Source: an uncultured Burkholderiales bacterium (lineage in GTDB: Bacteria; Pseudomonadota; Gammaproteobacteria; Burkholderiales; Burkholderiaceae_C). Taken from it: a DNA stretch of 64,000 nucleotides. The notes beneath the pieces are model-generated. The model was not told where the DNA came from. It made no database searches and saw only the letters and a list, made by a program, of their open reading frames with translations. The position numbers were made by a program, and so were the translations under genes. The DNA is taken from positions 1-64,000 of the forward strand of contig CAILYC010000024.1 of assembly GCA_903838355.1 (NCBI GenBank), written 5' to 3'. This document shows, piece by piece, positions 49,085 through 62,836 of the stretch. Numbering within the stretch: position 1 is the stretch's first letter; the number at the start of each line of letters is the position of its first letter.

Positions 49085-50419
49085 TTAGATCAACTCAGCC
49101 CTCAAAGAGTGGGCATAGGCCTGGGTGATTTTGACTTCCAGCATTTGCCCCTTGAGGGTGGCGGGGTCTCTTGGGCCCACGGCGAAATTCACCACCCGAT
49201 TGCACTCGGTGCGGGCCATGAACTCCTTGGGGTCTTTTTTCGAGGGTCCTTCGACCAAAACGTGTCGATGTTGACCCACCATGCCTTCGCCAATGGCCTT
49301 CACGTGGGTGTCCAAGAGCGCTTGCAAGGCCTGCAGTCTTTTGAGTTTGACGTCATGTGGGGTGTCGTCGTGCAAATTGGCCGCTGGTGTTCCGGGTCGG
49401 GGGCTGAATATAAAGCTAAACGATGCATCAAAGTAGAGGTCCTCGATCAAGCCCATCATTTTGTTGAAGTCGCCCTCGGTTTCTCCAGGAAAGCCCACAA
49501 TGAAGTCTGAGCTCAATGAGAGGTCAGGACGGATGGCGCGCAATTTTTTGATGGTGCTTTTGTATTCAAGGGCCGTGTAGCCGCGCTTCATGGCCATCAA
49601 AATCTTGTCACTGCCGTGCTGCACGGGCAGGTGCAAATGGTTGACAAGCTTGGGCTCTTTGGCGTAAGCCTCAATCAAACGCGGGGTGAATTCATTGGGG
49701 TGGGAGGTGGTAAAACGAATGCGCTCGATGCCGGGGAGCTGCGCGGTGAGTTCGATCAAAAAGGCCAAGTCGGCCATCTCGCTGCTGCTGCTGCCCATGG
49801 GGGCACGGTAGGCGTTGACGTTTTGACCGAGCAGGGTGATTTCTTTCACGCCTTGGGTGCTCAGTCTGGCAATTTCGGTGAGGACATCGTCCAAGGGCCT
49901 GGAAAACTCCTCGCCCCGGGTATAGGGCACCACACAATAGCTGCAGTATTTGGAGCAACCTTCCATGATGCTCACAAAGGCGCTGGCGCCTTCTTGCCTG
50001 GCGGGGGGCAAGTGGTCGAATTTTTCGATTTCTGGGAAGGTGATGTCAATTTGAGCGCGTTGGGTACGGGCACGCTCATCGAGCAAGGCGGGAAGCCGGT
50101 GCAAGGTCTGTGGACCAAAGACCACATCGACGAACGGTGCGCGTTCGATAATGGCGCCGCCTTCTTGAGAGGCGACACAGCCGCCCACCGCGATTTTGAC
50201 GCCTTTCTTTTTCAGGTGCTTCACGCGTCCAAGATCTGAAAACACTTTTTCTTGTGCTTTCTCGCGCACCGAACACGTGTTGAACACAATCAAATCGGCT
50301 TCATCGACATTGAGGGTTTTTTCGTAGCCTTGGGTGCTGTGCAGCACATCGATCATTTTGTCCGAGTCGTACTCGTTCATCTGGCAGCCGAAGGTTTTGA
50401 TGAAGACTTTGGGGTTCAT
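49085..50419 (-). CDS. miaB: tRNA-2-methylthio-N6-isopentenyladenosine37 synthase MiaB
   Basis: A 444-residue radical-SAM methylthiotransferase. The N-terminal UPF0004 domain has [20 protein letters not shown] and GGCVASQEG, whose three cysteines bind the auxiliary 4Fe-4S cluster. The radical-SAM cluster motif is [20 protein letters not shown] (CxxxCxxC). A C-terminal TRAM domain follows. The ATG at 50419 ([11 protein letters not shown]) is chosen; upstream in-frame codons are unlike the family. Confidence 0.96.
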
Positions 50420-50737
50420 GGCGAAGGGGTGCTCTCTAGACGATTGTGGCGGGGCTTGAGCGCTCAGGCGATGCTCCAAGGAGCGTTTTCTGGGGGGCGA
50501 GGAAACCTGACGTATCAGACCCTACAGCCCAAGGATGCATGCCGCAAAGGGCCTGGGCTTTGAGAGCGCTTGATCCTGAATCAACAAAACAAGTCGCCCA
50601 GGGCGAATTTCTGTTGGGAATCGTTGGCTGTCACGCTCGAGCGGTTCGTGGGGTAGATCCAGAGGCTAGGGGCGATGAAACTTGTATTTTAGCCGCAAGT
50701 TCCGATGAGAACAGGACTTCTCGCGCATTGCCCAATA
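50420..50737. other. Intergenic region upstream of miaB
   Basis: No gene, tRNA or clear terminator is seen. Open frames across this stretch have no recognisable protein character. Confidence 0.4.
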
Positions 50738-50977
50738 TCAATGAGCACGTCTATGCCCTCCATGTCTTGGCTTCTGCGCGATGTGAATCGTGCGCTTTTG
50801 AACCATATCCGAGTCACCCGACCCGTTTCGATGAGCGAGCTGGCCGACCTCATTGGGCTTAGGATAAATCATGCTGAACCCGAACAAAAAGTAGATTGTG
50901 ATCTAACCGATGATCTGAAAGTCATGCCATGGACTCAGGCGATCGGCAGCCCTTGGGCAAAAAAAAGAGCCCACTGA
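50738..50977 (+). CDS. Hypothetical small protein
   Basis: A possible 79-residue frame from the ATG at 50738. The first half, LLRDVNRALLNHIRVTRPVSMSELADLIGL, could be a small helix-turn-helix-like fold. The C-terminus runs into the terminator of the convergent carbonic anhydrase gene. No Shine-Dalgarno sequence is visible and I do not recognise a family, so it may be spurious. Confidence 0.25.
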   Translation, partial: SMSTSMPSMSWLLRDVNRALLNHIRVTRPVSMSELADLIGLRINHAEPEQKVDCDLTDDLKVMPWTQAIGSPWAKKRAH

Positions 50978-50984
50978 GGGGCTC
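50959..50984 (-). terminator. Rho-independent terminator of the fliK-fliN-carbonic anhydrase operon
   Basis: On the minus strand GAGCCC-CTCAGT-GGGCTC is followed by eight T (50959-50966 on the plus strand are A). It lies 24 bp after the stop of the carbonic anhydrase gene, so that gene is the last of the operon. Confidence 0.85.
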
Positions 50985-51007
50985 ATTGGGGGTGGTGCGA
51001 AGGGGGC

Positions 51008-52231
51008 TCAGTTGGCAAGTATTTTGCGTCCGTTGAGTTCTTGCACGGGCCTGGCGTTGAGTTTGAAAGGGAATTTGTTCAATTGTCCCTTGGAGATGTC
51101 GCTGCTGGTTTTAAGGATGAAGAAATTCACGCCCTCGGTGCAAGGGGGGGTTGTGAGGGACCCCTCATAGGTGTAAAAAGACAAGTCCGCGGGCAAGATG
51201 CTGGCGGGGTTGATGATCATTTTCTCTGGGGCGGATTCTTCGCCCTCTTTGGCGGGTAAATTGGCCCAGAGTGTTTTGATCAAAGGATTTTCTTTGCCTT
51301 CATTCAAGGGTAGGCCCAACACAACGAGTTTGCCCGCTTTGCTTTTGTGCACAAAATGCACGACCATGGCGGGAGACTTGCCGTTGAATTGCTCCTCGCC
51401 TGGGCGATGGAAATGGAACTGGATCAACTCATAGGGCTCTTTGTTGACGGTGAGCACATTCGTGCCGGGTTCCACATTGACTTGGATGGTGTGGCCATTG
51501 TTGATGATCTTGAGCGGGGTTTCTTTGTACTCGGGTGAAATCGTGTCTCGGGCTTTGCCCATGTCACCTTTGATGTTCAACGGCGACTGTTTTTTGCCGT
51601 TGGCACAAGTGGGGTAATTCTCACCCCAGTGCTCAGGTCCTTCTTCTCCCTCATACGTCCAGTGCACCTTCTTGGCGGCACTTTCTTTGGATTTTTCATC
51701 GTCGTCTTGGGCTTTTTTCTCGCCTGGCTTGACCATGCACTCGGCCATCAAGGTGACTTTTTTGCCGGCACTGATCAAGGCGCTTTGAGCCGAGCACACC
51801 GCTTGCATGCGAGCACCGAGCTCAGCAATTTCAAGCGACTTTTGGAAGGCCTCCACTGCTGACGAGTCTTCAAAACCTTTGGTGAGTTGACGCACCGTAC
51901 CGAGTCCGACCAAACGCTCTGCGCTCAAGGTTTTTTGAGCTTTGTAAACCGCTTCCATGTCTTGGAGCACCACGCCATTGGCAAAGGCTTGTTTGACGAT
52001 TTCAAATTGCTTGGCACTGGCTTCTGTCTCTTCGAGTCTGGTCTGAGCGTCATCGAGTTGCTCTTTGGTTTTGTCCAGGGTGTCTTTGGTTTCGTCGAGC
52101 TCTGCGCTCACCTCTTCCATGTCCGTGGTGAGGTGTTTTTTGCCAGAGAAATTCATATAGGCCAAAGTGCTGGCACCAGCGAGCAACAACACGAGCAAGA
52201 CTTCAAGGACGATTCGCAGGTACTTTTTCAT
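51008..52231 (-). CDS. Membrane-anchored coiled-coil alpha-carbonic anhydrase
   Basis: A 407-residue protein with an N-terminal transmembrane helix (about 6-26), a coiled coil rich in Glu, Lys and Leu heptads (about 35-75), an unassigned helical region to about 170 with C146 and C165, a charged linker, and an alpha-carbonic anhydrase domain (about 190-407). Zinc ligands H273, H275 and H292, a His at the proton-shuttle position (H247 in INNGHTIQ), GSLTTPPC and the likely C209-C364 disulfide are present, so it should hydrate CO2 in the periplasm. It follows fliN by 43 bp on the same strand and precedes the terminator, so it is probably cotranscribed with fliKLMN. The extra membrane and coiled-coil part is unusual for this family. 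Confidence 0.85.
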   Translation of the reverse strand: MKKYLRIVLEVLLVLLLAGASTLAYMNFSGKKHLTTDMEEVSAELDETKDTLDKTKEQLDDAQTRLEETEASAKQFEIVKQAFANGVVLQDMEAVYKAQKTLSAERLVGLGTVRQLTKGFEDSSAVEAFQKSLEIAELGARMQAVCSAQSALISAGKKVTLMAECMVKPGEKKAQDDDEKSKESAAKKVHWTYEGEEGPEHWGENYPTCANGKKQSPLNIKGDMGKARDTISPEYKETPLKIINNGHTIQVNVEPGTNVLTVNKEPYELIQFHFHRPGEEQFNGKSPAMVVHFVHKSKAGKLVVLGLPLNEGKENPLIKTLWANLPAKEGEESAPEKMIINPASILPADLSFYTYEGSLTTPPCTEGVNFFILKTSSDISKGQLNKFPFKLNARPVQELNGRKILAN

Positions 52232-52274
52232 GGTACGGCTTTCACAATAGGGTTACACCTTCAAACTTGAAGGA

Positions 52275-52661
52275 TCAAAGGGTCTTGAGGCGTTCGGTCG
52301 AAGGCACAACGCGGGTCAAACGGATGCCATAGCGGTCGTTGACCAAGACCACCTCGCCTTGGGCCACGACGGTTTCGTTGACCAAGAGGTCAAGCGGCTC
52401 ACCCGCAATGCGGTCGAGCTCGACGACACTGCCTTGGGTCAAGCGCATCAGATCTTTGATCTTGATGTTGGCGCGCCCCACTTCAATGGCCAGGGTCACG
52501 GAGATGTTTTGGAGTACATCGGCATTGATGTTGCCGGGGTGACTGAGTTTGAAGTCTTGAGAGTTCGGCAACGGCTCGGCGTGGTCGAATTCATTGGGAT
52601 TCAACAAAGCGTCTGCAGGGCCTTCTTCTGGGGTGCTCTCAGGGGTGGTGTTGTCGGACAT
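52275..52661 (-). CDS. fliN: Flagellar motor switch protein FliN
   Basis: A 128-residue C-ring protein with a variable acidic N-terminus and the SpoA domain (about residues 55-125): ISVTLAIEVGRANIKIKDLM, GSVVELDRIAGEPLDL and VNDRYGIRLTRVV. FliN forms the lower C-ring and binds FliH for export and CheY for switching. The ATG at 52661 is chosen because GGAAGAG precedes it by 5 bp. It overlaps nothing and lies 14 bp after fliM. Confidence 0.95.
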   Translation of the reverse strand: MSDNTTPESTPEEGPADALLNPNEFDHAEPLPNSQDFKLSHPGNINADVLQNISVTLAIEVGRANIKIKDLMRLTQGSVVELDRIAGEPLDLLVNETVVAQGEVVLVNDRYGIRLTRVVPSTERLKTL

Positions 52662-52675
52662 GGTCTCTTCCTCTT

Positions 52676-53674
52676 TCAAAGCTGGCCTGGGATAATTTGT
52701 TTTTCAACTCTCACCGCGATTTGTGAGCCGCGGGTGCCCACACTCACGCCAAAGGTGGGCACACCTTGGGAGATGAATTGGGCGAGTTCGGGTTTTTTGA
52801 AATAAAGCATATCGCCTTCTTTCATGTTTTGCAGGTGACTCAAGGTCGTTTTGAGGTGTCCCATCAAGACCTTGACGTCCAAGGTGGCGTCCCCCACCGC
52901 AATGGCCATGTCTTCACGCCATGCTTTGTCGGACTCTTCATTGCCGTCACCGGTTTGCACCCGGTTTCTGAGCAATTCACGCAAGGGCTTCAAGGTGGCA
53001 TAGGGGTAGACCAAGTCAATGAAGCCACGCGCGCTCGAGCTCGTGGCATCGGACTCAAAGCGGCTCAAGACCACCAAGTCGTTTTCATCGGCGATTTGGG
53101 CAAATTGAGGATTGATTTCTGAGGCCACCCGCTCGGTGGTGATCTCCATCACCGGCGCCCAGGCTTCCTTCAAGGACTTGAAAAACACATCCAAAATGAT
53201 GTTGATGATCCGTGTCTCGGTCGCGGTGAAAAGCCGCCCAGGGGGCAACTCACCCACGCCTTTGCCAAAACCACCAAAAAAACTGTCCAAAGAGCTGAAA
53301 ATCACCGAGGGGTCGATGATCACGACCGAGTAGCCGCGCAAGGGATTGAGGCGAATGGTGTTGACGGCCAATGGGGGCTTGATGGTTTTCAAGTACTCAC
53401 CAAACTTCATGATTTGAACCTTGTTGGGGTTCACGCGCGGGGTGGTGCGCAGAACCTCCAATAGACCCAGGCGGAACATTCGAATCAAACGCTCGTTGAT
53501 CATGTCCACCGATGAGACATTGACCCCAAGGCTGCTGTCTTCGCTGGCCAAATCGTGCTTGTGCACGCTCACCTGGGTATTGAACCCGGTGTCCGTTTCA
53601 ATGGAGCCGTCATGCACCCCTTCGGTGAGGGCCAGAAGCTCCTCAGGCGAGAGCAAATTTGATCGATCAGACAT
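52676..53674 (-). CDS. fliM: Flagellar motor switch protein FliM
   Basis: A 332-residue C-ring protein. The N-terminal LLSPEELLALTEG is a version of the CheY-P-binding peptide (usually LSQDEIDALL); the middle domain has RGYSVVIIDPSVIFSSLDSFFGG, the conserved GG-containing interface with FliG; the C-terminal SpoA domain pairs with FliN. It is second-last of the core operon fliK-L-M-N. Length is typical. Confidence 0.95.
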   Translation of the reverse strand: MSDRSNLLSPEELLALTEGVHDGSIETDTGFNTQVSVHKHDLASEDSSLGVNVSSVDMINERLIRMFRLGLLEVLRTTPRVNPNKVQIMKFGEYLKTIKPPLAVNTIRLNPLRGYSVVIIDPSVIFSSLDSFFGGFGKGVGELPPGRLFTATETRIINIILDVFFKSLKEAWAPVMEITTERVASEINPQFAQIADENDLVVLSRFESDATSSSARGFIDLVYPYATLKPLRELLRNRVQTGDGNEESDKAWREDMAIAVGDATLDVKVLMGHLKTTLSHLQNMKEGDMLYFKKPELAQFISQGVPTFGVSVGTRGSQIAVRVEKQIIPGQL

Positions 53675-53693
53675 GGTGGCCGTTATTGTAAAT

Positions 53694-54278
53694 TTATTGC
53701 ATCACAAAGGACGTAAAAAAGACATCTTCAATGCCGCCAAAGTCTTCGTAGTTTTCCAGCAACTCGTTCATGGTGTCTTTGAGCTTGGCCGCCAAGTCTT
53801 TTCTGAATTCCGGCTTGGCAATATCAGCCTCGGTACTTTGGCGCATGACATCAAGCATCGCGGAGCGCAAGGCAAATTCATGCTTTTTCACATTGTCAAA
53901 AACACGGTTGTCGTAATGGGTCATGAGGGCAATTTGCACCACCATCACCTTTTTAGATCCCGTGATGTTGGTCATGAGCTCTTTTTCAAGCTGCAAATAG
54001 TTTTTCTCAAAACGCGTGCCCTCGGGTGCTTCTTTCTTGATTTTGGATGGGGCTTCAACTTTGGCCTTGCTGGCGGCGGCTTCGAGCTCTTCGAGCTTGT
54101 CTTCGGCCTCCAACTCGGCTTTTTTCTCGAAATAGCCCGAGAAGAACAGCGTTGCAAATGCCACGCCCACCAAGAGCACAATGCCCACAATCACACCAAT
54201 CAAGATTTTAACGATGGGTTTTTTCTTTTTCGGCTCTGCGGTGCCTTCGGCGGTTTCTACTGGTGCGGCGGTGGCCAT
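53694..54278 (-). CDS. fliL: Flagellar basal body protein FliL
   Basis: A 194-residue protein with a single transmembrane helix (about residues 25-47, VKILIGVIVGIVLLVG), a charged Glu/Lys/Ala-rich stalk and a periplasmic stomatin-like C-terminal domain. FliL rings surround the stator units and help torque. The length and the VVQIALMTHYDNRV and MLDVMRQ segments fit the family. It lies between fliK and fliM. Confidence 0.92.
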   Translation of the reverse strand: MATAAPVETAEGTAEPKKKKPIVKILIGVIVGIVLLVGVAFATLFFSGYFEKKAELEAEDKLEELEAAASKAKVEAPSKIKKEAPEGTRFEKNYLQLEKELMTNITGSKKVMVVQIALMTHYDNRVFDNVKKHEFALRSAMLDVMRQSTEADIAKPEFRKDLAAKLKDTMNELLENYEDFGGIEDVFFTSFVMQ

Positions 54279-54323
54279 GGTTTAACTCCTAAAAATTTGA
54301 GTTGGGCTAGATTGAGCCTGGGC

Positions 54324-56852
54324 TCAAGCGAAAGTATCCAATAAGGCATCATTGCTTTTGCCCGTGATCGGGGCATCGGCAACAGTGGAAGAATCTTGAG
54401 TCAGGTCATTGACTGAACTGGCATTTTGGCTGTTGTTTGCAAAGGGATTTTGACCCTCATTGCCGGAACCTTGACCCTGAGCATGGGAGCCTCCAGCACT
54501 GCCTTGTCCAATTTGAACGCTGGCATGGTTGAGCCCCAAAACACTCAGATTATCCTTGAGTTGCTGGGAGCCGTGTTGGAGAAGATTTTGTGTCAAAGCG
54601 TTGTCAGACTGTAACACCGCTGCCAGTTTGCCGTCCTTCATTTCAAGCGAGACATCCACCGCACCCAAAGAGGAGGGTTTGAGGGCAAATTTCATTTTCC
54701 ATTGACCCTGGGCAATTTGATCGTTCATGCGCTTGGACAGTTCGCTGGCCAATTGGTTGGAGAGCTGCTCATAGGTATCGGCCATGTTCAGTGGGTTTTG
54801 GCTGAGCGCACTCGCGTCGCTCGGTATAGGGCTGCCCGTGTTGGCATTGCTGCCCGCGCCGCTTTGTGCGCCTTGTCCTGACAGGTCCAGGGTTGCACCT
54901 ACGGCCAGTGAGGGATCGTTGCCCGCAAGGGCTGCAGTCGTGCCCAGGGCCAAATCAAAGGCCTTGGTGTCGCCGGTGCTGAAAGTCCCTTTGCCATTCA
55001 ACTGGTTAAAGGCTGTTTGCAAGGTTTCGATGGCTGAGCTCGAGAGGTTGGAGCCCGCCATATTGAGCACCGACAGGGTACTGGCGGCATTGCCGCTCAT
55101 GGTGCTGTTCAAGCGCGATGAAGTGGCAGCTTGTGTAGAAAAACTGATTTTGGCTTCAAGGGTGTTGACGCCGGCTTGTTCGAGCAGGTCGTTCATGTCT
55201 GAAATGGCTGTGTTGGCTGTGTTGGGATTGGTGGGGTTGATGGGGTTGATGGGGTTGGGATTGGTGGGGTTGGTGACCAAGGGCGAGCCAGCACTGGACT
55301 GGAGCAAGTTGTTCAATCCGTTGGCGCCCATGCCAGCGCTGAGCGGGTTGCTCAAGGCCACGGGTGTGTTGCCCAAGGCACCGATCGCCTGACTTGAGAC
55401 AGGCAAATGGGACAAGGGGTTGAGCGCTGTGCCCAGGCTGTTGCTGGTGAGCATGGCGGCGCTGTTGGCGGTTTGAGCTGAGGCCAAAGTATTGGCGCTG
55501 CTGCTCGCACCTGCACTCAATGTTAGCGTTGCCAGTGAGTCGGCATTGGTGGTGAGCGTGAGCCCCGCCTTGACCGAATTGGCGCTCAAGGCTGCTGCTG
55601 CGTTCGTGCCTGTGTTCAAGGTGCTGGTGTTCAATGGACCTGCTTGGAGTGCTGCTGCGTTGAGCATCAAGGCATTGGCGTCTGGGCCAAAGAGTTCGGA
55701 GATGGCGCTTTCATCAAAACCCATGGAGCGTGCAAAATCTGCAAGGCTCTTTTCATTGGGTGCGTCGCTGGAAACCGTCACAATTTGGGTGTTGTCACCC
55801 AGTGCAACGGTTATGAGGGGATTGCTGCCAGTGCTGGCCAAGGCGTTGGCACCTGAGGCTGCGCCAGGGTCACTGACCATTGCAGATGCCGCCGTACTCG
55901 CGTTGGATGCGGTGCTTGAAACGCTGGGGAGTCGTTGCTGACTGAGCGCGATATTGGCCAAGGTCAAACGGCCCGAAGCGGCGTCGCTGCTTGGCGAATT
56001 TGGAGAATTGGCCAAGGTGTCAACGGTTGTATCCTGGGTGGCGCCCAGTATTGACTTGCTCGTGTCTAGGTTTGAATCTAAGGGCGCATTGGGGTCTTGC
56101 CCCAATACACCGGTGGTTTTGGGTTTGTCACCAAGGGCTGCGCCACTGGACTGTTCTCTTCGCTGCAAGTGCTCATGCGCGTTTGAACGCTGGTCCGAGG
56201 CGTGACTTGGTGTGTCCGCTGAATTTCTGTTGGGCTGTCTGGCCTGCGAAGTATCAACCTTGCTGGCTGTTTGTTCATCACGGGTACTGTTGTTGCTAAT
56301 AGGGTCTGTATTTGTCCTCGAGTCTGGCGCGTTGCTCCTATCAGTGCTAGAAGAGCTGGAAGGTTGAGACCGGGCCCAGGAGGTCGATCCCAAGGAGCCC
56401 GTTGAATCCATGGAAGCGGTGTTCGATCCAAGCCAATTATTGGAAGTGGGCGCAAAAGCACTGGAACTGCTTGAATTGCCAAGGCCCCCAAACGCAGAAG
56501 TTCCAGACAAGGCGCTCAGATCTGAGCCGCCTAAAAAGTTGGCAAGCGGCAAGCCACCCAATGAGCTTGGGGAGCTGTTCAGCAAAGCGTTGCTGCTGTC
56601 CAGGGGCAAAGGCAAGGGCAATGAAGGGGCTGTGGCCGCGGGGCTGGCGTTGAGCGTGGGTGAGCTCGAGTTGCTGGGTTGGCTTTGAGCAAACGAGGGG
56701 TGCATCATCCTCTCAAAAAACACCGAAAATTGCGGCCCTGTTAAGGGGTTACTGGGTGTGACTTGAGGTGCACTCGCGCCGCCGCCCAAGAGATGGGCGT
56801 CGCTCAAGGGGGCGGTATTGGTGTTCGGTGAATTAATGGAATTCGAACTCAT
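54324..56852 (-). CDS. fliK: Flagellar hook-length control protein FliK
   Basis: An 842-residue protein whose first 700 residues are low-complexity Ser/Asn/Ala/Leu/Thr-rich sequence with a short Asn-Pro repeat (NPTNPNPINPINPTNPN), typical of the secreted molecular ruler. The C-terminal Flg_hook domain (about residues 705-790) contains WKMKFALKPSSLGAVDVSLEMKD and switches export specificity at FlhB. The ATG at 56852 (MSSNSINSP) is preferred to the upstream in-frame start at 56909. It is about twice as long as E. coli FliK (375), so hooks may be long if length scales. It heads the minus-strand operon. Confidence 0.92.
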   Translation of the reverse strand: MSSNSINSPNTNTAPLSDAHLLGGGASAPQVTPSNPLTGPQFSVFFERMMHPSFAQSQPSNSSSPTLNASPAATAPSLPLPLPLDSSNALLNSSPSSLGGLPLANFLGGSDLSALSGTSAFGGLGNSSSSSAFAPTSNNWLGSNTASMDSTGSLGSTSWARSQPSSSSSTDRSNAPDSRTNTDPISNNSTRDEQTASKVDTSQARQPNRNSADTPSHASDQRSNAHEHLQRREQSSGAALGDKPKTTGVLGQDPNAPLDSNLDTSKSILGATQDTTVDTLANSPNSPSSDAASGRLTLANIALSQQRLPSVSSTASNASTAASAMVSDPGAASGANALASTGSNPLITVALGDNTQIVTVSSDAPNEKSLADFARSMGFDESAISELFGPDANALMLNAAALQAGPLNTSTLNTGTNAAAALSANSVKAGLTLTTNADSLATLTLSAGASSSANTLASAQTANSAAMLTSNSLGTALNPLSHLPVSSQAIGALGNTPVALSNPLSAGMGANGLNNLLQSSAGSPLVTNPTNPNPINPINPTNPNTANTAISDMNDLLEQAGVNTLEAKISFSTQAATSSRLNSTMSGNAASTLSVLNMAGSNLSSSAIETLQTAFNQLNGKGTFSTGDTKAFDLALGTTAALAGNDPSLAVGATLDLSGQGAQSGAGSNANTGSPIPSDASALSQNPLNMADTYEQLSNQLASELSKRMNDQIAQGQWKMKFALKPSSLGAVDVSLEMKDGKLAAVLQSDNALTQNLLQHGSQQLKDNLSVLGLNHASVQIGQGSAGGSHAQGQGSGNEGQNPFANNSQNASSVNDLTQDSSTVADAPITGKSNDALLDTFA

Positions 56853-57477
56853 GGTCTTGGTGTAATTGGGTGTACGTCGATGTGTGTTTTGCAGGCTTTG
56901 TCGTGGCACTGATGTGCAAAGACAAACTTTACAAGCAAAAATCGTGACTGGTTACTCTTTGCCATGGGCTTGAACGCCATTGGGTTCAGGTATTGGGGCA
57001 GTAAATTCCAATTAAAATAAATATTAAGTATTATTTTATATTGTTTAATATTTAATAGGTATTATTAAATGATATTGAATTATTTTTTCTATACCGTTGA
57101 ATTTGATGACTTTGTTCATGCCGTGAACCCTTGAAAGCATATTTTCCGCCTGCTTTATCAGGAAAAAGTGGCCAATTCTTGCATCCCTCTGAGTTTTGGG
57201 TGGTCAATGCGTTTTGGCCCAAGGCTGGGGATTGTAAAAATCAGCCCTGTCTTCAATCCACGTTCTTGTGGGTCAGCACGCTTGCAAGACTGACTTTGGG
57301 GTGAGCGCGGAAATTGCTCAGACTTCTTTGACCAACAGATAAACTTACAAATAACTGACAAGTAACTCACAATTCACTGATCAATGAACGCTGCAACACA
57401 AAGTCGCCGTTGATGGGGGCCCGGTGTTGCGACCCCGGTCATTGCTGCCTTGGGCGACGGCGTAACGTCAACGTAAC
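56853..57477. other. fliK-flhA divergent intergenic region
   Basis: A gap of 714 bp separates the divergent fliK and flhA starts. About 57000-57110 is very AT-rich (AATATTAAGTATT-like repeats), unlike the flanking genes, and could be bent or bound by nucleoid proteins. The minus-strand frame 57158-57370 does not look like a protein. I found no convincing promoter for fliK; a sigma-54 promoter for flhA lies just after this stretch. Confidence 0.5.
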
Positions 57478-57494
57478 TGGCATGTCGATTGCTT
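57478..57494 (+). promoter_or_regulatory. Sigma-54 promoter upstream of flhA
   Basis: TGGCATG, four bases, TTGCTT: the GG (57479-57480) and GC (57491-57492) are 10 bp apart, as the -24/-12 elements require, and only one base differs from TGGCACG-N4-TTGCW. The predicted start is near 57504, about 63 bp before the flhA ATG. This implies control of flhA-flhF-flhG-fliA by an enhancer-binding protein of the FleQ/FlrC type, not seen in the window. Confidence 0.7.
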
Positions 57495-57566
57495 AACTGT
57501 AAAGACACATAGAAGAATTTGCATTTTGTGAAATCTTAAGCATTAAATTTTGAAGCAAAAAAGACC

Positions 57567-59666
57567 ATGACCACCCTAAGCCTGTCAACCATTCGACAGA
57601 ATTTGACCAAATTTGACTACTCAGGTCTGGGTATTCCTGCCTTGGTGTTGATGATCATGGGCATGTTGGTCTTGCCATTGCCTCCTTTATTGCTGGATTT
57701 CTTGTTCACCTTTAATATTGTGGCGAGCTTGGTGATCATCATGATTGCCATCAGCACGACCAAACCTTTGGATTTTTCAGCCTTTCCTTCGGTCTTGCTG
57801 TTTGCCACCATGCTGCGTTTGGCCTTGAACGTGGCGTCGACCCGGGTGATTTTGGTCCACGGCAGTGAAGGCCAAGATTCAGCGGGCAAAGTGATTGCAG
57901 CCTTTGGTGAGTTCGTCATCAGTGGCAACTATTTGGTGGGATTCATCATATTCTCAATTTTGATGATCATCAACTTCATCGTGGTGACCAAAGGTGCAGG
58001 GCGCGTGTCGGAAGTGAACGCGCGTTTTACCTTGGACGCGATGCCGGGTAAACAAATGTCGATCGACGCGGATTTGAATGCGGGCGTGATTGATCAAGCC
58101 ACAGCCAAGAAAAGACGCGAAGAGTTGTCCCAGGAGTCTGACTTCTTTGGCTCCATGGACGGTGCGTCCAAATTCGTCTCAGGCGATGCGGTCGCGGGTC
58201 TCTTGATTTTGCTCATCAACGTCATCGGTGGTTTGGCCATTGGTGTGGCCCAGCACGGCATGTCTGTAGCAGATGCCGGTAAGCTTTATGTGCTGTTGAC
58301 CATTGGGGATGGATTGGTCGCTCAAATCCCTTCACTCTTATTGTCGCTTTCCACCGCCATCATTGTGACGCGTGTGACCACATCGGAGTCCATGACCGAG
58401 CAAGCAAAGACTCAGCTCTCCAACCCCTCAGCTTTGTTCATTGCCTCGGGCATTTTGACCGTCTTGGGCTTGGTGCCTGGCATGCCACACATGATCTTTG
58501 TGGCCCTGGCCGCGGCCACTGCGGGTATTGGACTCATGGTGATTCGCGGTGAAGTCGAAGAAGAGGCCCAGGTCCAGGCGCAAATGGATGCGCCCAAAAT
58601 GCAAGCGCCCAAAGAATTGGACTGGGACGACATTGACCAAGTCGACTTGATTGGCCTCGATATCGGCTACGGCCTCATTCCCTTGGTGAACCCTGAAACC
58701 GGTGGCGAGCTCATGAGTCGAGTCAAAGGTGTCAGAAAGAAACTGTCTGCCGAATTGGGCTTTTTGGTCCAGCCCGTTCGCATTCGCGATGACCTCAACA
58801 TCGATCCTGATTCTTATCGCATTGTTCTCAAAGGCGTTGTCAGGGGCAAGGGCGATATCAAAGTGGGCCGTGATTTGGCCATCAACCCTGGCCAAGTGTA
58901 TGGCGAGCTCAAAGGCATTGAAACCTTGGAGCCTGCGTTTGGTTTGAAAGCGGTTTGGATTGAACCCTCTGAGCGAGATCACGCCAGGGCCATGGGCTAC
59001 ACCGTGGTCGATGCCAGCACGGCCATCTCCACCCATTTGAATAAAGTGCTGCGTGAAAATGCGTCTGACCTCATCAGCCACGATGACACCCAACAATTGC
59101 TCGAAAAGCTTGGTGCCCGTTCACCAAAATTGGTTGAAGATTTGGTACCCGGTAAAATCGCTTTGGGCGTACTCACCCGCGTTTTGCAATTCCTCCTCAT
59201 CGAATCGGTCTCGATTCGCGATATGCGCACCATTGCTGAAACCTTGGCTGAAGTCAGCCACCGCAGCAACGACCCCGAGCAGCTCGCCGCCATGGTTCGT
59301 CCCAAGCTCGGGCGCATGATCATGCAAAGCTTGGTCGACGAGAAAAATACCCTTTCGGTGATGACGCTCGAGCCGGGCTTTGAGCAACTGCTCCACAACG
59401 TGATCCAACAAACCCAGCCTGGACAACCCGTGGTCCTCGAACCCGGTCTATCCGAGAACTTGTTTTTGGCGCTCAGAGATGCCGCTCGCGTGATGGAAGA
59501 CGATGGCAACCCGGCCGTGTTGGTGGTCTCGCCCCTCATTCGGACTTGGCTGTCCAAAGCGGTCAGACATCGCGTGAATGATTTGACGGTGTTGTCCTAC
59601 AGCGAAATACCCGATGACCAGTCCGTGAAAGTGGTGCACACCGTTGACGCCAAGCCCAAAGATTGA
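57567..59666 (+). CDS. flhA: Flagellar export apparatus protein FlhA
   Basis: A 699-residue protein of the FHIPEP family: eight N-terminal transmembrane helices (residues 20-330), the signature RFTLDAMPGKQMSIDADLNAG in the cytoplasmic FHIPEP loop, and a large cytoplasmic C-terminal domain (about 350-699) that docks chaperone-substrate complexes. It forms the nonameric ring under the export gate. FlhB, usually upstream, is absent here. FlhF follows 34 bp downstream. Confidence 0.97.
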   Translation: MTTLSLSTIRQNLTKFDYSGLGIPALVLMIMGMLVLPLPPLLLDFLFTFNIVASLVIIMIAISTTKPLDFSAFPSVLLFATMLRLALNVASTRVILVHGSEGQDSAGKVIAAFGEFVISGNYLVGFIIFSILMIINFIVVTKGAGRVSEVNARFTLDAMPGKQMSIDADLNAGVIDQATAKKRREELSQESDFFGSMDGASKFVSGDAVAGLLILLINVIGGLAIGVAQHGMSVADAGKLYVLLTIGDGLVAQIPSLLLSLSTAIIVTRVTTSESMTEQAKTQLSNPSALFIASGILTVLGLVPGMPHMIFVALAAATAGIGLMVIRGEVEEEAQVQAQMDAPKMQAPKELDWDDIDQVDLIGLDIGYGLIPLVNPETGGELMSRVKGVRKKLSAELGFLVQPVRIRDDLNIDPDSYRIVLKGVVRGKGDIKVGRDLAINPGQVYGELKGIETLEPAFGLKAVWIEPSERDHARAMGYTVVDASTAISTHLNKVLRENASDLISHDDTQQLLEKLGARSPKLVEDLVPGKIALGVLTRVLQFLLIESVSIRDMRTIAETLAEVSHRSNDPEQLAAMVRPKLGRMIMQSLVDEKNTLSVMTLEPGFEQLLHNVIQQTQPGQPVVLEPGLSENLFLALRDAARVMEDDGNPAVLVVSPLIRTWLSKAVRHRVNDLTVLSYSEIPDDQSVKVVHTVDAKPKD

Positions 59667-61266: not shown

Positions 61267-62090
61267 TGAGCACCCAAAAAACCGAAGTGATTGGTGTGGC
61301 CAGTGGCAAAGGTGGCGTGGGCAAAACCACGGTCTCCATCAACTTGGCCACCGCCCTCACCCTGCAAGGCCACAAAGTCATGCTCTTTGATGCAGACTTG
61401 GGGCTGGCCAACGCGCAAATTGCACTCGGAGCCCGGGCCACTTACAACCTGAGTCATGTGCTCAATGGGGAAAAAACCCTTTCAGAGATTGTTCTCACCA
61501 CCAAACAAGGCATCAAATTGATTCCAGGCGCTTCGGGGGTTGAAGAGTTGGCGGGTTTGAGTGAAACCCAAGCCGCGAGCATTGTTCAGTCCTTTAGTTC
61601 CCTATCCGACGAAATCGACTATTTGATCGTCGACGTGGCCGCTGGCATTTCCCCGTCCGTCCTTGCATTCTTGGCCTCGTGTCAGCGCCGCTTTATTGTG
61701 GTGAAGGACGACCCTTCCTCCATTGCCGACGCTTACGGCACCATCAAGGTGCTGTCCAAGCACATGGAACTCGATGAGATCTATTTGCTGCCCAATATGG
61801 TGGGCTCACAAGCCGAAGGCTGGAAACTTTATCAGCGCTTGAACGATGTGTGTGTCAAGTTTTTGGGGATCAATTTGCATTATTTGACCTCTATTGAGAA
61901 CGACGAGTTGGTTCTCACGGCACTTAGAAAATATTCCTCGGTCTTGGAGTTGTCACCCGGCAGTGCCGCGGCCAGAGACTTTAGACGCTTGGCCGATGTC
62001 TGTACTCAGTTCAGGCCCATTGACCACACCTCGGGTGGATTGCAGTTTTTTATGGAGCGGCTGGTCAACCCTAGCCAGAAATCATTATGA
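61263..62090 (+). CDS. flhG: MinD-like ATPase FlhG (FleN)
   Basis: A 275-residue ParA/MinD-type ATPase that limits flagellar number with FlhF. GVASGKGGVGKTTVSINLA is the deviant Walker A with its two lysines; FDADLGLANAQIALG is the Walker A-prime region; IVDVAAGIS is the Walker B segment (usually DTAAG). The protein starts a few residues before the P-loop and lacks the N-terminal DQAxxLR helix that in other FlhG proteins stimulates the FlhF GTPase. The start is either of two adjacent ATGs overlapping the flhF stop. Confidence 0.92.
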   Translation: MMSTQKTEVIGVASGKGGVGKTTVSINLATALTLQGHKVMLFDADLGLANAQIALGARATYNLSHVLNGEKTLSEIVLTTKQGIKLIPGASGVEELAGLSETQAASIVQSFSSLSDEIDYLIVDVAAGISPSVLAFLASCQRRFIVVKDDPSSIADAYGTIKVLSKHMELDEIYLLPNMVGSQAEGWKLYQRLNDVCVKFLGINLHYLTSIENDELVLTALRKYSSVLELSPGSAAARDFRRLADVCTQFRPIDHTSGGLQFFMERLVNPSQKSL

Positions 62091-62836
62091 GAGCTCTCTC
62101 ACCAGTCAAACACTATCAGCAACAACAAGTCTCGCCCAGTGAAGAGCTGGTGATGGCCCACTTGGGGCTGGTCAAACGGGTCGCCATCCACCTGAGAGCC
62201 CGCGTGCCGGCTTTCATGGAGCTCGATGAATTGATTCAAGTGGGGATGATCGGGCTCTTGGAAGCCGCCAGAGCATTTGACTTGAACAAGGGTGTTGAGT
62301 TTGAGAATTTTGCCCACTCGCGTGTGCGCGGCGCCATGCTCGATGAGGTGAGGCGCTTGTCGTTTCTGCCCAGGTCTGCTGTGGCGTTCAACAAGTCTCA
62401 CAATGAGACCTTGCACACGTTGTCGTCAGAACTCGGTCGTGCCCCCTCTCAAGTCGAAATCGCTGAATTCATGGGCAAAGACATCGAGGAGTTTCACAAA
62501 GACCGCGGCAAGGCCTGGCAATTTGAGACCTATTCCATGGAAGTGGTGACGGAGGAGGTGATGAACATTGCCGACACCCACGACCAGCAGCCCGATGCCA
62601 TCGTCGAGCACGCCCAGTTGATGGATGCGGTGACCACAGCGATTGAAGATCTGCCCGAGCGCGAGCAGCTCGTCATGCAGCTCTACTATGTGGAAGAGCT
62701 CAATTTGAAAGAGATTGGTGAAGTCTTGGGGGTGAGTGAGTCCCGGGTGAGTCAAATTTTATCAACGGTGGTCAAAAAGCTGCGTGGCAATTTGAAAGGC
62801 GCGTTTGATCCCGTCGAAGCGACTGCGAGGCATTGA
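62087..62836 (+). CDS. fliA: Flagellar RNA polymerase sigma-28 factor FliA
   Basis: A 249-residue group 3 sigma factor with region 2 (LVMAHLGLVKRVAIHLRAR, ELIQVGMIGLLEAARAFD, FENFAHSRVRGAMLDEVRR), region 3 (PSQVEIAEFMG) and region 4 (LPEREQLVMQLYYVEELNLKEIGEVLGVSESRVSQI). It transcribes late flagellar genes and is inhibited by FlgM. It overlaps flhG by 4 bp, so it is made from the sigma-54-driven transcript. A matching promoter is visible before fliS. Confidence 0.97.
   Translation: MRALSPVKHYQQQQVSPSEELVMAHLGLVKRVAIHLRARVPAFMELDELIQVGMIGLLEAARAFDLNKGVEFENFAHSRVRGAMLDEVRRLSFLPRSAVAFNKSHNETLHTLSSELGRAPSQVEIAEFMGKDIEEFHKDRGKAWQFETYSMEVVTEEVMNIADTHDQQPDAIVEHAQLMDAVTTAIEDLPEREQLVMQLYYVEELNLKEIGEVLGVSESRVSQILSTVVKKLRGNLKGAFDPVEATARH

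Follow-up and report, generated by a model that had tools for sequence, protein, structure and literature searches.

A carbonic anhydrase joined to a membrane anchor and coiled coil, apparently controlled together with the swimming flagellum in a group of Burkholderiales

The window considered here is the whole stretch of DNA that was analysed, 64,000 nucleotides from an uncultured bacterium of the Burkholderiales (Burkholderiaceae_C; contig CAILYC010000024.1). It contains a run of four flagellar genes followed, on the same strand, by a gene for a protein of 407 residues, in which an alpha-carbonic anhydrase is fused to an N-terminal module of membrane helix, coiled coil and helical head. The features of the locus are the following:

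51008..52231, minus strand: fusion gene of 407 codons with an ATG start, encoding membrane helix, coiled coil, helical head and alpha-carbonic anhydrase
52151..52219, minus strand: N-terminal transmembrane helix, about residues 5-27 (hydropathy and alignment), the N-terminus reading MKKYLR
52010..52135, minus strand: Glu/Lys-rich coiled coil, residues about 33-74, with heptad positions M38-L45-L52-L59-L66
51722..52009, minus strand: helical head, residues about 75-170, with C146 and C165 (module alignments)
51014..51664, minus strand: alpha-carbonic anhydrase domain, residues about 190-406 (Pfam and PDB alignment), C209/C364 being a probable disulfide
51356..51415, minus strand: zinc ligands H273, H275 and H292, in QFHFH ... 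VVHFVH (translation and alignment)
52275..52679, minus strand: fliN (FliMN_C, 1.8e-21), 43 bp upstream of the fusion gene
52676..53674, minus strand: fliM (Pfam)
53694..54278, minus strand: fliL (Pfam)
54324..56909, minus strand: fliK (Pfam)
49085..50479, minus strand: miaB-like gene (UPF0004, radical SAM and TRAM domains), the other neighbour conserved across the genus
50967..50984, minus strand: terminator-like GC stem and T run, 23 bp past the stop codon of the fusion gene
62087..62836, plus strand: fliA, for sigma-28 (NF005413, 3.5e-72), the presumed sigma factor for the promoter box of relatives described below

The anatomy of the protein had been described in an earlier note made from the letters alone, and everything that note stated about residues holds: the transmembrane helix, the Glu/Lys coiled coil, the further helical region and the complete alpha-carbonic anhydrase were all found again (by hydropathy, periodicity and Pfam), and the zinc histidines H273, H275 and H292, the shuttle histidine H247 and the cysteine pair C209/C364 lie at the claimed positions of the translation. 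The strand was missing from that description: it is the minus strand that encodes the protein, and 51008..52231 holds no open frame on the other. The 19-residue Kyte-Doolittle mean reaches 2.23 at residues 7-25, the next best value outside residues 1-40 being 1.01, and the 3.5-residue periodicity of residues 34-74 was matched by only 1 of 2000 shuffles. The Pfam family Carb_anhydrase (PF00194) covers residues 198-406 with 129.5 bits against a cut-off of 27, and this is the single PF00194 match in the window's own genome (87.6% complete). The best PDB relative is 4xz5 (residues 190-405, E 8e-53); the best 10 PDB chains are 217-248 residues long and contain the carbonic anhydrase domain only, with alignments that begin at about residue 186-191. 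The fusion shares with bacterial alpha-carbonic anhydrases (PF00194; PDB 4xz5, 6im0, 6eki) the fold, the three zinc histidines, the shuttle histidine and the cysteine pair, but adds to them the membrane helix, coiled coil and helical head, and its gene is linked to the flagellum. Profile searches of the PDB with the N-terminal module returned nothing significant, the best E value being 0.031 (PilN) and the next 0.17. The two head cysteines, C146 and C165, which the earlier description did not include, are invariant in module alignments of 20 and 15 rows.

The position claimed for the gene, 43 bp after fliN and ahead of the operon terminator, was borne out: fliN ends at 52275, which sets the gap at 43 bp, and the upstream order is fliK-fliL-fliM-fliN on one strand. 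The arrangement in the window is that of an operon, with codirectional genes, no promoter found between them and the terminator-like site last; a scan of 50900-57700 for sigma-70-like promoters found none where 3.4 were expected. A FliA-like box at 54373..54399 (minus strand, 10/13), 121 bp before fliL, is weak, lies inside the end of fliK and was not used as evidence. It recurs at the same place in stretches L032-L034, and scores 9/13 in L035, L037, L040 and L122.

The fusion gene is present in 78 of 84 genomes of the window's genus, and in 39 of the 40 good-quality ones (completeness of 90% or more, contamination of 5% or less). The fetched stretch includes fliN in 57 of the 78, and here the orientation varies: the two genes are codirectional in 11, convergent in 42 (with gaps of 9 bp to 4.5 kb) and separated by miaB in 4. 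Of the 21 stretches without fliN, five (G256, G257, G319, G325 and G326) come from contigs that carry fliM no more than about 5.1 kb away, and in one more, G282, the miaB side is arranged as in the window and the opposite side is a contig end. Inversion has thus turned the gene round within the fliKLMN-miaB-ffh region without moving it out, and cotranscription with fliN is possible, in the stretches covered, only in the window's sub-group and in G259. The earlier note's operon with fliN is therefore correct for the sub-group to which the window belongs and does not extend to the other relatives; because orientation varies, conservation of the operon is no proof of function and was dropped as an argument. 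The miaB, ffh, ccsB-like and ampD-like neighbours are likewise conserved at this locus, so that synteny by itself proves little.

Since the gene does not lie behind fliN in most relatives, it must there have a promoter of its own. The consensus for FliA in E. coli is TAAA-N15-GCCGATAA, and upstream regions were scanned for a box of this kind in 66 same-genus genomes, the 11 codirectional ones and G282 being left out; three were too short upstream, which left 63. The box TAAAG-N15-GCCGATA, at a score of at least 10/12, lies 55-139 bp before the start codon in 60 of the 63, which do not amount to 63 independent events, since the promoter evidence is confined to one genus and the scanned stretches are centred on the fusion gene. 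TAAA and GCCGATA are 16 bases apart in all 60 boxes, of which 55 reach 11/12 or more; the other three of the 63 upstream regions share this layout with a score of 9. Under a first-order Markov null, a score of 10 is reached in 1.7% of cases and one of 11 in 0.08%. In 46 non-redundant segments the columns of the motif show 97% mean identity and the flanks and spacer 49%, and the G after TAAA, which is outside the search pattern, is 98% conserved. The strict pattern was found at 42 sites across 68 same-genus stretches (1.93 million strand-bases, mostly centred on the fusion gene), each time before a homologue; in 13 further stretches it occurs elsewhere twice (L265 +509 and L271 -3372), with no recognised flagellar gene behind it. 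The box accompanies the gene even in G254, G297 and G317, three genomes in which nearly 10 kb separate the gene from miaB.

The FliA consensus being that of E. coli, a looser exact pattern, TNAAG...NCCGA[T/A] within 250 bp upstream (null about 0.5%), was tested on genes of this genus, assigned to families by Pfam or by a match to Pfam-assigned proteins. It precedes the fusion gene in 62 of 73 cases, and is also found before fliS (9/10), a gene for an LPP20-type lipoprotein (5/6), flgM (2/7), fliD (1/1) and flaG (1/1). Ten control genes (fliN, fliM, fliL, fliK, miaB, ffh, flhA, the ccsB-like and ampD-like genes and flhF) had it once in 170 cases, that one preceding a fliL. On the 12-point scoring, controls reached 10 in a few cases (ffh 2/15, flhF 3/24, fliM 1/41) and 11 in none, while the fusion gene reached 11 in 54 of 73. 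In this genus the looser box is thus shared between the fusion gene and accepted FliA class III genes. These counts support a FliA-type identity for the box, and three results speak against it: the spacer of the fusion gene is one base longer, 16 against the 15 found before fliS, flgM, fliD, flaG and the LPP20 gene; same-genus flagellins lacked the looser box (0/3); and two flagellins of G092, a genome of another genus, scored only 8/12. The three flagellins and five of the seven flgM genes without a box (L226, L270, L271, L260-L264) may have other promoters or be transcribed within operons. Short lipoprotein-like genes (L260:7983-8465, plus strand; L261-L263; L265-L267) carry a FliA-like box 55-102 bp upstream; the three that were scanned are all LPP20 by Pfam, and they are candidate envelope proteins of the FliA regulon.

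The window's sub-group is the exception, with a box of at least 10/12 in none of 10 testable members (scores of 7-9, the window itself 7); G259, which is codirectional but belongs to a separate lineage, has a 10/12 box at -170. On our reading, the inversion that placed the gene behind fliN would have exchanged one flagellar promoter for read-through from another flagellar operon, the gene of the window being, we assume, read through from fliK-L-M-N. An independent promoter had been named beforehand as something that would speak against the flagellar link. Such a promoter does occur in the relatives, but it resembles a flagellar promoter.

The flagellar association extends beyond the genus. Of 399 family genomes in 141 genera, a profile of the N-terminal module (residues 1-185, with rows supplied by G000, the window's own genome, and by G080, G184, G092 and G293) matched 9, which belong to 4 genera; G251, G292, G412 and G465 are new matches. 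In each of these 9 genomes the gene has flagellar genes around it or next to it. In G092 the fusion gene directly follows fliF, fliG, fliH, fliI, fliJ and a 247-residue gene; its congeners G336 and G337 have the same arrangement, with one extra open reading frame between in G337, and in G412 and G465 the fusion occupies the same fliF-G-H-I-J place after an additional lipoprotein-like gene. A genome of the window's genus, G293, has two copies, one beside miaB and fliN and the other after fliI, fliJ and the 247-residue gene, on a contig that starts in fliI. In all these clusters the fusion is on the strand of the fli genes that precede it. There are therefore two distinct flagellar settings in which the fusion is found. 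A prevalence of whole-protein homologues away from flagellar genes would have told against a flagellar role, and this was not the pattern in the genomes examined; the core idea that the enzyme belongs to the flagellum has been strengthened by the box of the relatives and by the fliF-G-H-I-J placement in three other genera. The N-terminal module also occurs without a carbonic anhydrase domain, in three genomes of family f18 (G748, G719 and G624), all of which encode FliG.

Two further genes lie in flagellar clusters. The 247-residue gene next to the G092 fusion (L043:1733-2476, minus strand) was at first guessed to be FliK, but has no Pfam match; homologues lie next to fliJ or near it in G000, G080, G276, G267, G336, G337, G412, G465 and G293, in reverse orientation in the first four, and the scanned members are without a Pfam match. 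The gene between fliH and fliI encodes a membrane protein of one helix with an extended acidic linker, in which the last 50-60 residues repeat the C-terminal tail of FliF, which we take to be the FliG-binding tail; from its sequence this protein looks like a paralogue of the FliF C-terminus. It is found in the window's own genome (G000, contig C3, L216:9215-10012) and also in L217, L218, L226 and L215; 5 of 7 same-genus genomes tested have it, and G315 and G277 are without any tail match. Membrane proteins with a FliF-type tail at the end are encoded beside the module that lacks a carbonic anhydrase, or within about 6 kb of it, in the f18 genomes (L181:8797-9576, minus strand; L182:3436-4203, plus strand; L183:12752-13948, plus strand), on contigs other than that of fliF, and a FliF with its own tail is present there too.

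Some carbonic anhydrase match was obtained in 112 of 250 family genomes, 108 of them without a full-length match; of the 17 loci examined among these 108, none had the N-terminal module or, in the stretch, a homologue of FliF to FliN, FliD, FlhA or FlhF. In a tree of 63 carbonic anhydrase domains, 28 ordinary enzymes make up one side of a branch with support of 100/100. A search of plasmids gave 194 records with carbonic anhydrase matches, none of which covers 80% of the query. Five same-genus genomes (G279, G298, G301, G290 and G278; L111-L115) have a second carbonic anhydrase of the flagellar clade, matched mainly in the enzyme domain, with no tested flagellar gene within stretches of 5-20 kb and the membrane-coil-head module seemingly absent. 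The start of the one in L112 resembles a lipoprotein signal, and a few further partial second matches occur among same-genus genomes. In those five genomes the domain has apparently escaped its flagellar context, which argues against an exclusively flagellar role for the carbonic anhydrase domain.

Judged by its residues, the carbonic anhydrase domain of the window's genus is catalytically competent. Apart from L043, 89 aligned rows were compared, and each of them keeps H247, H273, H275 and H292 (some genomes appear twice, second copies being included). In the genus of G092 the situation is different: H273 is replaced by Q or R, H292 by K or Q and H247 by R (G336 and G337 were read by eye), and yet the full architecture is kept, and the score of the carbonic anhydrase domain remains at 122 bits in G336 and 105 bits in G337. 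Catalysis therefore cannot be the whole function everywhere; it is inessential to the family, and the fold can outlive it. A protein encoded in a genome of another family (G582; L222:3893-4714, plus strand) has a membrane helix and coiled coil ahead of a degenerate carbonic anhydrase with one of the three zinc ligands by eye, on a contig with a Rep3 replication gene and a phage-type integrase rather than flagellar genes.

Known motor proteins offer two comparisons. E-ring proteins such as FlgY, FlbB and MotE are reported to combine a coiled coil and a helical head with either a membrane anchor or a signal peptide, and their genes to stand mostly beside fliJ or fliK (PMC13023049). The fusion appears from its sequence to follow this pattern; its gene in G092, G336, G337, G412 and G465, like the second copy in G293, follows fliJ at a distance of one to three genes, much as flgY is reported to lie near fliJ or fliK (PMC13023049). 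The E-ring proteins as described there carry no enzyme domain, however, and the E-ring is reported to be absent from beta- and gamma-proteobacteria (PMC13023049). Homology of the head to MgtE_N found no support: the families listed for the protein do not include MgtE_N, and hhalign gave a probability of 0.1 against an MgtE_N alignment made from MgtE-sized proteins. In a PF03448 genome search nearly all of the matches listed were likewise long frames of MgtE size. The head having no MgtE_N signal, the fusion is not classed as an E-ring protein. The second comparison is with PflC, a protein of the Campylobacter motor that is reported to be an HtrA homologue lacking the catalytic triad (PMC12222027). 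Here too a periplasmic enzyme fold would have been recruited to the motor, and catalytic residues have been lost in a comparable way in G092, G336 and G337; the fold in that case is HtrA and in this one carbonic anhydrase, and most members here keep the active site.

The strongest alternative to a working enzyme at the motor draws on just these facts. The carbonic anhydrase fold might have been taken over as a structural piece of a ring or spoke on the periplasmic side of the motor, with its activity retained by descent or irrelevant, and the N-terminal module would then act as in an E-ring. The loss of H273 and H292 in an intact architecture, the module alone in three f18 genomes and the degenerate domain of G582 all fit this idea, as do the precedent of PflC (PMC12222027), that of FlbB, an E-ring protein of 205 residues and similar layout, and the position of flgY, mostly beside fliJ or fliK (PMC13023049). 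A pure scaffold would have no need of the zinc ligands and shuttle histidine, though, which all of the 89 rows apart from L043 keep, and the comparison of the head with MgtE_N gives it no help, although FlgY and FlbB themselves share little sequence. We hold a purely structural role to be rather unlikely.

A second alternative keeps the enzyme and takes it away from the motor, as a general carbonic anhydrase of the periplasm, coregulated with the flagellum and made only while cells swim, that supplies bicarbonate or maintains pH when the cell arrives at a new site. The zinc site is intact, as such a role would have it, and FliA regulons of other bacteria include genes with no part in the motor. 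It would also suit G315 (96% complete), which has the fusion gene and its box and no detected fliM, flhA or FliG_C; G290 (68%) and G322 (69%) are like it. The six of the 84 genomes without the fusion gene show a mixed pattern. No match to fliM or FliG_C was obtained in G277 (99% complete), whose FlhA-family match is distant (35% identity), and fliM, flhA and FliG_C all drew a blank in G308 (84%); G267 and G310 have FliG_C and neither fliM nor flhA, and G253 and G266 have flhA. Against an envelope enzyme stand the flagellar settings of the module in the four genera of the profile search, its occurrence without the enzyme in the three FliG-encoding f18 genomes, and the placement in fliF-J clusters of genomes in which the zinc site is lost, so that this explanation appears improbable. 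That an ordinary carbonic anhydrase came to lie between fliN and miaB by chance is very improbable indeed: the conservation of miaB, ffh and the ccsB-like and ampD-like genes at the same locus and the variable orientation would suit it, but the box stays with the gene where miaB is distant and the fusion has a second flagellar location in other genera.

The evidence as a whole suggests that a carbonic anhydrase enzyme, or its fold, has been recruited as a part of the flagellar motor in a group of Burkholderiales, where it apparently shares the genetic control of the swimming flagellum. Our preferred reading, to which we give a probability of roughly 0.55, is that the fusion is a periplasmic accessory of the motor belonging to the FliA regulon, and that in this genus it is probably competent in catalysis. 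FliA would use the box that relatives have upstream of the gene, and the protein would be made together with the flagellum. In enteric bacteria the genes of the FliA class are expressed late, together with the stators and filament, and FliA control would likewise place synthesis of the fusion at the stage of stators and filament. The N-terminal helix would anchor the protein in the inner membrane with its N-terminus inside and the rest in the periplasm, a placement with which the cysteine pairs are compatible because they fit an oxidising compartment. The coiled coil would form a dimer or higher oligomer in the periplasm, and the head, with its two cysteines, and the carbonic anhydrase domain would be held beside the basal body and stators, the N-terminal module providing the docking.

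An enzymatic role at the motor is plausible as a hypothesis. As the most economical role, the active domain would most likely bring CO2, bicarbonate and protons to equilibrium in the vicinity of the proton-consuming stators, acting as a local buffer or a proton-collecting surface; buffering of protons or supply of bicarbonate near the stator, proposed in the earlier note, would be candidate roles. Vertebrates provide an analogy, albeit with another partner in another organism and as an analogy alone: in one study, inactive carbonic anhydrase-related proteins enhance a proton-coupled transporter in oocytes (PMC6609565), and the carbonic anhydrase fold, active or not, is there described as assisting proton-coupled transport by monocarboxylate transporters, with a proton antenna suggested (PMC6609565). 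As the inactive proteins also boost the transporter, a proton antenna would suit the dead form of G092 as well.

Among the top-ranked results of searches in the open-access literature, judged by titles and the openings of abstracts, no carbonic anhydrase was found tied to a flagellar operon, motor or FliA/sigma28, and within the same scope no protein was described that combines alpha-carbonic anhydrase, coiled coil and motility. Within that scope no precedent for the flagellum-linked fusion came to light. The earlier observation stands, and its connection to the flagellum is supported and reaches further than the operon; what has fallen away is the operon with fliN as a general arrangement, which 11 of 57 stretches show. 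A bolder extension of the preferred reading, which we regard as doubtful, is that some Burkholderiales have an undescribed periplasmic motor ring built of membrane-coil-head modules, equivalent to the E-ring that their lineage is reported to lack, in which the carbonic anhydrase domain on most subunits would feed or buffer the protons of the stators, with a dead domain in one genus and none in another family.

If the preferred reading is correct, this would be the first acid-base enzyme assigned to the flagellar regulon, within the literature searched, and possibly to the motor itself. The question of whether the supply of protons to the stators is limited by local buffering would become testable. 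Active, dead and absent carbonic anhydrase domains on one anchoring module make up a natural series, comparable to the recruitment of the HtrA fold in PflC. Finally, the module may represent an equivalent of the E-ring in beta-proteobacteria, where none has been recognised.
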